NCBI GenBank assembly: GCA_016188145.1
Contig: JACPIJ010000015.1
Coordinates: forward strand, 1-38,766
Length of the DNA stretch: 38,766 bases
Direction: 5' to 3'
Origin: Candidatus Woesearchaeota archaeon
GTDB lineage: Archaea > Nanobdellota > Nanobdellia > Woesearchaeales > UBA10216
The position numbers and the translations under genes were made by a program. The notes below the pieces were generated by a model, which saw only the letters and a list, made by a program, of their open reading frames with translations, searched no databases and was not told the DNA's origin. Below, in pieces: positions 15,084 to 36,165 of this stretch (position 1 is its first letter; each line of letters opens with the position of its first letter).

Positions 15084-15206
15084 AAACAACAGAATTCCAC
15101 TCATCTATGATGAGTGGGGTTCTGTGTGCTCAAAAACCATATGATTCGTGGAATTCTGAGCGTCAAAAACTACATGCCACCGGTCTCTGACCGGTGGTTT
15201 TTGACA
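15084..15206. repeat. Two-hairpin repeat element, copy 1 (123 nt)
   Basis: AAACAACAGAATTCCACTCATC-TAT-GATGAGTGGGGTTCTGTGTGCTCAAAAAC ... CATGCCACCGGTC-TCT-GACCGGTGGTTTTTGACA; nearly identical to 36076-36165 apart from a 33-nt internal length difference. Confidence 0.9.
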
Positions 15207-15391
15207 AGCCATATGAATTAAGTCTGGAGGACAGAACTGTGGTGGGATTGACAAAGAATGAGCACAAAATGCTTGTGGTGTCAGCCCAACAACCAAACGG
15301 CAGCTGGCAGCGCACCACGCCGCCACTATACTGGTAAATCCTGAAAGAAGCCGCAAAACCTTTAAATAAGCACAGCGTGGATGGGTGGATT

Positions 15392-17023
15392 ATGACAACA
15401 GAGAAAACAGCAGAGATAGCAGCATCGCTGCACCGCTTGGAAAGGGCAGTGCTGCCCCATATCAGCAAGCTCAGTTCTGTGGAAGACGTAGTGGTGGCAG
15501 CAAGGATGCAGGAGGTAGAAGTTCTGCGTGCATTACAATGGCTCCAGAATAAGGGGCTTGCCAAGTTAACTGAGAAGATTGAGGAGATAATCCGGCTTGG
15601 CGAAAACGGCAAGAACTACGCGAAATCACTGTTGCCGGAAGCAAGATTCCTGAATTCTATTGCAAACAAACCACAAGCACTGGCTGAAATAAAAAAAGCG
15701 GCAAACCTCAGCGATGAGGAGATGGGCGCAAGCATTGGCGCACTAATGAGGATTAAAGCCATAGAACCTGTTGCGGCTGCGGCTGAAAAGACATTTAAAA
15801 TAACTGAAAGCGGAAGGCAGATTGCAAAATCAGGGCTTAGAGCACAACGATTCCTTTCCGGTCAAAATTTCCCGGTTGGCATCAATAACCTGTCAGGCGA
15901 GGAAAAGAACATTGTTACCGAGCTGAAAAAAAGGAAAGACGTAATAAAAGAAGATGTTGTAAAGAAAAGAACAGCATTCCTGACCGAGCTCGGAAAAGAA
16001 GTCCTGAAAAAAGCAGCCTCAGCAGCCGAGACGGTTGACAGGCTCACCCCGGAAATGCTGATTACTGGCAGGTGGAAGGAAGCAGCGTTCAGGAGCTATG
16101 ACCTTACTGCCCCTGTGCCAAGGGTATTCTTCGGGAAACTGCAGCCATACAGGGAGTTCCTTGAAGAGGTAAGGGAAAAGTTCGTTTCAATGGGCTTTGA
16201 GGAAATGACTGGCCCAATAGTTGAAAGCGAGTTCTGGAACATGGATGCCCTGTTCATGCCCCAGTTCCACTCGGCAAGGGATATTCACGACGTTTACTAC
16301 GTTAAAGAGCCGAAATACGCAACAGACTTGCCGCGGCAGTTGGTAAAAAAAGTAAAGGCCGCCCATGAAAACGGCTTTGGCACAGGAAGCAAGGGGTGGA
16401 GGTATGAGTTCAGCGAGGAGAAAACAGCTAGGCTCATAATGAGAAGCCAGACAACGGCCTGCAGCTCAAGGAAACTGGCTTCTACAGACCTGAAAATACC
16501 GGGGAAGTACTTTGCAATAGGCAGGTGCTTCAGGTACGATGTGATAGATACCAAGCACCTTGCGGACTTCAACCAGGTTGAAGGTATAGTTGTTGAGGAA
16601 AACCTAAGCCTGAGACACCTCATTGGCCTGCTCAAGCTCTTCGCAAAGGAATTCTGCAATACAGACAAAGTCAAAGTCGTGCCATCATACTTTCCATTCA
16701 CAGAGCCTTCAGCATCCCTTTATGCAAAGCATCCGGAGCTTGGATGGATGGAGCTGGGCGGGGCCGGGATTTTCAGGCCTGAAATGGTCAAGCCACTCGT
16801 AGGAAGCCATATGCAAATCGGACGAAGTCCGATTCAGCATCGGCAGCAGCCGATGCGTATCGACCCGAGGTCGATAGCACATTCCGCTTCCAGCGGAATT
16901 GTTCCCGTAATAGCGTGGGGGATTGGCATAGATAGAGTGGCAATGTTCAAGCTCGGGCTAAACGATATCCGGGAGCTGTTTAGCCATGACCTCAACTTTT
17001 TGAGGAACGCAAAGGTAGTCTAA
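15392..17023 (+). CDS. pheS: Phenylalanyl-tRNA synthetase alpha subunit with internal hairpin-encoded insertion
   Basis: N-terminal winged-helix region and class II core (GFEEMTGPIVESEFWNMDALFMPQFHSARD, ELGGAGIFRPEMVKPL, PVIAWGIGIDRVAMFKLGLNDIRELFSHDLNFLR). TATA-like CCTTTAAATAAG at about 15359 favours the start at 15392 over the ORF-track start 15377. Confidence 0.92.
   Translation: MTTEKTAEIAASLHRLERAVLPHISKLSSVEDVVVAARMQEVEVLRALQWLQNKGLAKLTEKIEEIIRLGENGKNYAKSLLPEARFLNSIANKPQALAEIKKAANLSDEEMGASIGALMRIKAIEPVAAAAEKTFKITESGRQIAKSGLRAQRFLSGQNFPVGINNLSGEEKNIVTELKKRKDVIKEDVVKKRTAFLTELGKEVLKKAASAAETVDRLTPEMLITGRWKEAAFRSYDLTAPVPRVFFGKLQPYREFLEEVREKFVSMGFEEMTGPIVESEFWNMDALFMPQFHSARDIHDVYYVKEPKYATDLPRQLVKKVKAAHENGFGTGSKGWRYEFSEEKTARLIMRSQTTACSSRKLASTDLKIPGKYFAIGRCFRYDVIDTKHLADFNQVEGIVVEENLSLRHLIGLLKLFAKEFCNTDKVKVVPSYFPFTEPSASLYAKHPELGWMELGGAGIFRPEMVKPLVGSHMQIGRSPIQHRQQPMRIDPRSIAHSASSGIVPVIAWGIGIDRVAMFKLGLNDIRELFSHDLNFLRNAKVV
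16816..16899 (+). repeat. Array of four perfect short hairpins inside the pheS reading frame
   Basis: AATCGGAC-GAA-GTCCGATT; GCATCGGC-AGCA-GCCGATGC; TATCGACC-CGA-GGTCGATA; ATTCCGCT-TCC-AGCGGAAT, all 8-bp stems, consecutive and translated in frame. Confidence 0.92.
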
Positions 17024-27753: not shown

Positions 27754-28209
27754 TTACAGCTTCTTCGTTATTACGAAATGCTTTGTCTTGCTCAACGGCC
27801 TGCATTCAAAAACCTCAACCTTGTCTCCTTCCTTTGCAGAGATGCATTCCGGATTATGGACTTTTATGCTGGAAAGCCTTCTTTCATAACGCTCATATTT
27901 CCTCATGAACCGGGTCCTTTCTATCACAATGTTGGCGGTTCCCCTCATCCTTGCAGACGTAATAACGCCAGTGAAATGCCTTCCGTGAAGCCTCAACCTT
28001 CCATGAATGGGGCAATTGCCATCCGTACATGCGGCATCCTGCTTTTGAGTGCCGCTCACGCCCTCAATGTCGCCTGCTGGCGACGAGCCAGCATCGGTAT
28101 CGACCGATGCATATCGACCAATGGCCGATATTCGCCTCTCCGGCGAAGTATCAACCCTGCTATCTGCCTTTGCCGCATTTGAGTTTTCTTCCTTTGTTCT
28201 CTTTGCCAA
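27754..28209 (-). CDS. rps17: 30S ribosomal protein S17 with hairpin-encoded N-terminal insertion
   Basis: Core S17 CTDGNCPIHGRLRLHGRHFTGVITSARMRGTANIVIERTRFMRKYERYERRLSSIKVHNPEC...; about 50 unusual residues precede it. Confidence 0.9.
   Translation of the reverse strand: MAKRTKEENSNAAKADSRVDTSPERRISAIGRYASVDTDAGSSPAGDIEGVSGTQKQDAACTDGNCPIHGRLRLHGRHFTGVITSARMRGTANIVIERTRFMRKYERYERRLSSIKVHNPECISAKEGDKVEVFECRPLSKTKHFVITKKL
28069..28147. repeat. Array of four short hairpins inside rps17
   Basis: GTCGCC-TGCT-GGCGAC; GCATCGGT-ATCG-ACCGATGC; ATATCGACC-AAT-GGCCGATAT (one mismatch); TTCGCC-TCTCC-GGCGAA. The last three align on the + strand with the last three hairpins of 16816-16899. Confidence 0.9.
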
Positions 28210-36075: not shown

Positions 36076-36165
36076 AAACAACAGAATTTCACTCATCTAT
36101 GATGAGTGGGGTTCTGTGTGCTCAAAAACCACATGCCACCGGTCTCTGACCGGTGGTTTTTGACA
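36076..36165. repeat. Two-hairpin repeat element, copy 2 (90 nt)
   Basis: AAACAACAGAATTTCACTCATC-TAT-GATGAGTGGGGTTCTGTGTGCTCAAAAACCACATGCCACCGGTC-TCT-GACCGGTGGTTTTTGACA; near-identical to 15084-15206. Confidence 0.9.

Follow-up and report, generated by a model that had tools for sequence, protein, structure and literature searches.

Our results suggest, with a probability that we put at roughly 65%, that the gene for the phenylalanine--tRNA ligase alpha subunit (PheS) of a groundwater Woesearchaeota archaeon received, in this lineage, an in-frame insertion of two tiny non-autonomous mobile DNA elements, one nested in the other. Specifically, the array of hairpins in pheS is an element A (two hairpins, net length 48 nt) that is split by an element B (two hairpins, 42 nt). 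The gene lies in the window, the whole 38,766-nt stretch of DNA that was analyzed here, and provides the only PheS match found in its genome (labeled G000; 1.18 Mb in 81 contigs, incomplete). The features on which the argument rests are as follows.

15377..17023, forward strand: open reading frame of PheS with the insertion (NCBIfam NF003210, E=4e-162; PDB matches to PheRS alpha).
16811..16900, forward strand: in-frame insertion (90 nt, 30 aa; MQIGRSPIQHRQQPMRIDPRSIAHSASSGI), the composite of B within A, or A[B], delimited by alignment with PheS of the genus and the order, its ends being accurate to within a few nt.
16812..16834, forward strand: left half of element A, with the TGC foot, the unpaired A, and hairpin 1 (16816-16834), assigned by the A grammar.
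16835..16876, forward strand: element B, 42 nt, with hairpins at 16837-16856 and 16858-16876, between A hairpin 1 and the GCAC foot, assigned from stand-alone and otherwise nested B copies.
16877..16904, forward strand: right half of element A, with the GCAC foot, hairpin 4 (16881-16899), the unpaired T, and the end GTTC (usually GTGC).
28066..28160, forward strand: second B copy of the window (28089-28130), matched with an E-value of 8.5e-13 and nested between the hairpins of a two-hairpin repeat, called repeat E.

The hairpins themselves are as an earlier, sequence-only reading had described them: four lie back to back at 16816-16899, each with 8/8 complementary stem positions and a loop of 3-4 nt. 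That reading had taken the row for one four-hairpin element; the row stands, but it is really two two-hairpin elements, nested. Folded as single-stranded DNA, the array reaches -32.5 kcal/mol, a z of -7.9 relative to its dinucleotide shuffles (-12.4 +/- 2.5). Across the window, 14 perfect hairpins with a stem of at least 8 were seen where 3.0 were expected, and no second adjacent hairpin cluster was found there besides the pheS array. In 400 kb of the sister genome G007, by comparison, 34 adjacent perfect-hairpin clusters were counted, versus 0-1 in Markov-simulated sequence, and 220 kb from other genera of the family held 2.

The reading frame of pheS remains open across all four hairpins. 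In the PheS proteins of the genus and of more distant relatives, the aligned region reads KPL(V/T/I)G(K/R)(H/Q)-VPVIAWG, without the extra residues, and the best-aligning PheS of known structure has about five residues at this position. The segment is missing from all close relatives and from the more distant ones compared; its length, put at about 28 residues by the earlier reading, is 30 residues (90 nt) by alignment to these relatives. At the DNA level, the pheS genes of G007 and the window differ by the same 90 nt. An AlphaFold model of PheS built on 15 sequences, which is poor overall (pLDDT 66, pTM 0.40), assigns residues 470-500 a pLDDT of <50, flanked by more confident predicted strands. 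Most likely, PheS is translated with a 30-residue loop, predicted to be disordered, before motif 3. Such a segment, in frame and at a loop position, is also what would be seen if it were an ordinary protein loop, lineage-specific or ancestral, whose hairpins arose by chance. We give this explanation practically no credence, as none of the PheS proteins compared has the segment, adjacent hairpin clusters are unexpected by chance, and the idea is refuted by further copies of this DNA, which lie between genes as well as in unrelated genes and are read there in different frames.

These dispersed copies are widespread within the genus. Covariance models detected element A in 8/8 genus genomes, which are metagenome bins of 67-92% completeness, and, counted among the listed matches, it occupies at least 25 distinct places in G000 and at least 37 in G007, so that the further genomic copies expected of a mobile element are indeed many. 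These copy numbers rest on searches and targeted stretches rather than on whole-genome parsing. Further, in covariance models R1 and R2, hairpin 2 was shifted by one and two columns, so that bit scores and counts from these two models are approximate, whereas model R3 has the right pairs, and the key statistics below come from direct sequence parsing and R3. Covariance-model searches of the family's 10 other genera yielded no element A; in the order outside the genus, 2/345 genomes matched (G286 and G066). The elements in these two genomes, which represent two other families of the order (loci L225 and L226, respectively), share the grammar of A with different stem sequences and yield few matches; that of G066 adjoins tRNA genes. 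Class-wide matches in G357 and G498 were weak and had no double hairpin, with one resembling a tRNA gene, and were rejected as false. In viral contigs, two A-pattern matches without hairpins were attributed to chance, and no B pattern was found.

On its own, element A reads TGC-A-AATCGGAC..GTCCGATT-GCAC-ATTCCGCT..AGCGGAAT-T-GTGC, and element B has the layout CAGCATCGGC..GCCGATGC-G-TATCGACC..GGTCGATA. B is found within other double hairpins too, and A is found within B. The A[B] composite occurs at six different loci, namely, pheS, three loci of G007 (contigs C12, C8, and C1), and two of G005 (C41 and C39); their B part is almost identical, and their A hairpins vary by compensated changes. A copy elsewhere in G007 shares 98% identity over 91 nt with the pheS composite, although the pheS genes of G007 and the window species are 85% identical; this speaks for recent movement or exchange of the composite and against old descent. 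The repeat E that surrounds the second B copy of the window (CAATGTCG..CGAC, TTCGCC..GGCGAAGTATCAACC) recurs with a nested B at locus L065.

Other hairpin repeats were also observed. A longer two-hairpin repeat has two copies in the window, at 15090-15207 and 36085-36165 (CCACTCATC..GATGAGTGG and CCACCGGTC..GACCGGTGG), the former with additional internal sequence. A hairpin type of the form ACCTTTTT..AAAAAGGT, followed by ATCAAAAA, occurs at 2512, 9127, 14754, and 31449, the last copy being missing in G007; elsewhere in the genus, hairpins of this type often host further insertions. At L064, L067, L056, and L066, a related class, CCC-A-(hairpin)-GGGCCC-(hairpin)-T-GGG, hosts both A and B in arrays nested three to four deep.

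Empty sites could be recognized at two housekeeping genes. For SufS, the sequence ..CTGCA/GCAGCTG.. (the slash marks the site) is uninterrupted in G000 and G005, and the same site carries 48 nt more in G004 and G007. The element is identical between the latter two (51/51 positions), versus 80% and 81% identity in the 400-nt flanks, and it is missing from G005, even though this species is the closest to G007 by SufS protein, which implies exchange, repeated insertion, or precise loss. For DP2, the G007 gene carries an A[B] composite, and that of G005, whose protein is 94-95% identical, does not. With copies dispersed in this way and absent from orthologous PheS, the original proposal of a palindromic mobile element inserted in frame is upheld.

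Genes are common locations for these elements, which are found in intergenic regions as well. For 53 of the 89 elements that were examined, an open frame runs through the element and for at least 25 codons beyond it on each side, shorter frames of this kind being possibly spurious. Many of the long frames have Pfam matches, and these encode DP2, STT3, a Ski2-type helicase with a DSHCT domain, Elp3, Hel308 (in which the insertion sites differ between G000 and G007), and aIF5B; further Pfam-supported host frames encode an amidase, a radical SAM protein, SufS, Trm1, an alcohol dehydrogenase, a glycosyltransferase, OGG, a methyltransferase, a metallophosphatase, TFE-alpha, and UPF0047. About one-third of the hairpin clusters are genic, versus 77% coding sequence by gene calling on 400 kb of G007; hence, they are depleted in genes, yet common there. 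All six frames are free of stops in approximately half of the A copies; the same is true of 2% of 51-mers drawn at random from the genome and of 15% of simulated sequences matched in composition. The peptides that the elements encode fall in several frames and on both strands. Net length is divisible by three in the Pfam-supported coding copies and also in 7/9 intergenic copies.

The pairing within element A bears on the level at which it acts. In an alignment of 34 copies, standard pairs make up 98.8-99.3% of the paired cells, seven pairs change on both sides, and a single G-U appears in about 409 paired cells. RNA structure is expected to tolerate G-U, and such strict Watson-Crick pairing therefore argues that the element is kept as DNA. 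The idea that the segment is an RNA-level element that is removed or bypassed, for example, a small intron removed from pheS mRNA, could draw on the strong predicted structure, but it fares poorly against this covariation nearly free of G-U, the lack of any Rfam match, the open frame, the net lengths in multiples of three, and the occurrence of elements between genes and on both gene strands, and we consider it very improbable.

Beyond the stems, element A has an invariant unpaired A before hairpin 1, an invariant unpaired T after hairpin 2, and conserved feet, CA/TG and GCNC. In 50/54 simple copies, the element is bracketed by a 2-nt direct repeat, TG or CG and occasionally AG or CA, and in 49/54 this dinucleotide is complementary to the middle foot GCNC; none of 10000 permutations was as good in flank repeat and foot complementarity. 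In the composites, the flanking dinucleotide is repeated in 5/6 cases and varies (TG, TA, CG, CA), with the middle foot constantly GCAC; the pheS copy, preceded by TG and followed by TT, has an imperfect repeat. Because the composite flank varies while the foot stays the same, a true 2-nt target duplication is favored, and it appears to fit the composites better than an IS200/IS605-type end without duplication. In the simple copies, the match of foot and flank may be explained by guide pairing or by later palindrome correction. Further, excising the 48 nt restores another perfect hairpin in 20/54 A copies, versus 33/4000 random junctions (approximately 45-fold), which indicates that existing hairpins are preferred targets.

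A target duplication would likewise be left by a classical double-strand MITE whose hairpins are secondary and whose movement depends on an undetected DDE transposase acting in trans. The repeated dinucleotide of simple copies and composites beside a constant internal foot, as well as the element ends CA..TG, agree with this scenario. It is nevertheless unlikely in our view, given that the terminal inverted repeat spans only 2-4 bp, that the dinucleotide is TG, CG, CA, TA, or AG instead of a fixed TA, and that neither the two perfect covarying hairpins inside nor the enrichment for insertion into hairpins is expected of a double-strand MITE; no partner transposase was identified. At the other extreme, spread might need no enzyme at all, if template switching copied hairpin fragments into replication gaps or hairpins and quasi-palindrome correction perfected the stems and feet. 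The free exchange of stem interiors with pairing kept perfect, the near absence of G-U, the insertion into existing hairpins, and searches for Y1 and TnpB that yielded no candidate enzyme are all in keeping with this, but the constant net length and grammar, the invariant unpaired A and T, the clean dinucleotide repeats, and the precise empty sites speak for a defined cut-and-join reaction, and we hold an enzyme-free origin to be quite improbable.

Returning to mobile hairpin DNA, the grammar, flank repeats, and hairpin targets together favor recognition of a folded DNA and a defined cut-and-join reaction. The mechanism that we infer beyond this would start from an element recognized as folded two-hairpin DNA, with its bulged A and T and perfect stems, that becomes exposed when the DNA is replicated. 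It would be cut and joined at NG/CA/TA dinucleotides by a protein provided in trans, hairpin loops being the favored targets, and the target dinucleotide would then flank the element as a 2-nt direct repeat. As the net lengths are 48 and 42 nt and stops are few in every frame, copies could persist in genes as extra surface peptides. More tentatively, these may be mobile DNAs of a previously undescribed archaeal kind, modular and two-hairpin in build, whose units enter each other's loops as well as genes, whose central foot pairs with the target dinucleotide, and whose insertions into genes remain readable almost anywhere.

The leading candidate class for the mobilizing enzyme is a Y1/HUH single-strand transposase or one of REP type (TnpA-REP), an assignment that is possible but doubtful; no mobilizing gene tied to the elements was found among the eight genus genomes. 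As the resident mobilizer, a Y1 transposase (PF01797) was rejected, since it occurs in 2/8 incomplete genomes, although 8/8 carry elements, and its flanks lack the A grammar. TnpB (PF07282) was set aside as well, being present in 2/8 genomes, without TnpA, and with flanking hairpins that lack the A grammar. Separately, the window's own genome contains a divergent Y1 transposase reading frame (L119, on contig C18) near a lipoprotein-type cyclophilin, and TnpB genes without a detected TnpA were seen in G001 and G007 (L293, L294, and L295), with two perfect hairpins downstream of that at L293.

Several known systems offer partial parallels. Rickettsia palindromic elements are short palindromic repeats that lie in frame in many unrelated genes, whose products are presumably kept (PMC10969869). 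The likeness to them that had been proposed extends to behavior, with a palindromic repeat in frame in PheS, DP2, SufS, Hel308, and others, but not to family: each of those elements codes for a conserved peptide in roughly 150 bp, whereas the elements here measure 48, 42, or 90 nt, have two small hairpins each, are read in several frames on both strands, are nested, and are archaeal. The double-hairpin elements of fungal mitochondria are short, are treated as selfish, and have spread through a compact genome, with nested loop insertions in Allomyces. In Volvox organelles, short hairpin elements have been treated as selfish and have spread through a compact genome (PMC2670323). The mitochondrial elements resemble ours in form, with two adjacent hairpins inserted into other copies; both they and the Volvox repeats are organellar, and the latter are essentially confined to noncoding regions, in contrast to the archaeal elements described here, which are genic too.

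Among bacterial repeats, REP/BIME and REPIN sequences are pairs of small inverse palindromes, some with mismatches or bulges; a Y1 enzyme that works on folded single-stranded DNA is presumed to mobilize them in trans (PMC8266576). The halves of element A are similarly inverse, with its unpaired A 5' of hairpin 1 and its unpaired T 3' of hairpin 2, but the GTAG/CGTC tag beside the palindrome is absent, the feet being CA/TG and GCNC. Moreover, REPs are mainly intergenic and bacterial, and a Y1 gene is missing here from 6/8 genomes, all incomplete. The ends of IS200/IS605 transposons have subterminal hairpins with unpaired bases, and a short guide at the hairpin foot pairs with the target (PMC5934647). 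The complementarity of middle foot and target in simple copies is comparable, although composites deviate. Unlike those transposons, however, the elements here carry no gene, and where IS608 inserts 3' of a tetranucleotide that is kept in its left flank, its right end being the element's own, the right dinucleotide here appears to follow the target, agreeing with the left flank in 5/6 composites. Thus, no family compared here is matched in full, and the best reading is that of a new variant among palindromic mobile elements, archaeal and modular.

In the literature searched, which lay mostly outside subscription papers, we came across no description of elements of this kind from Woesearchaeota. 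As far as these searches show, they would be the first palindromic mobile elements of archaea seen to invade housekeeping proteins in frame, including the core of PheS, a replicative polymerase, an initiation factor, and SufS. Their nesting records the order of insertion. Further, they open three questions to testing: how little a mobile DNA can consist of, whether its target and its ends are both specified by DNA hairpins alone, and in what way essential enzymes accommodate 16-30 additional residues.
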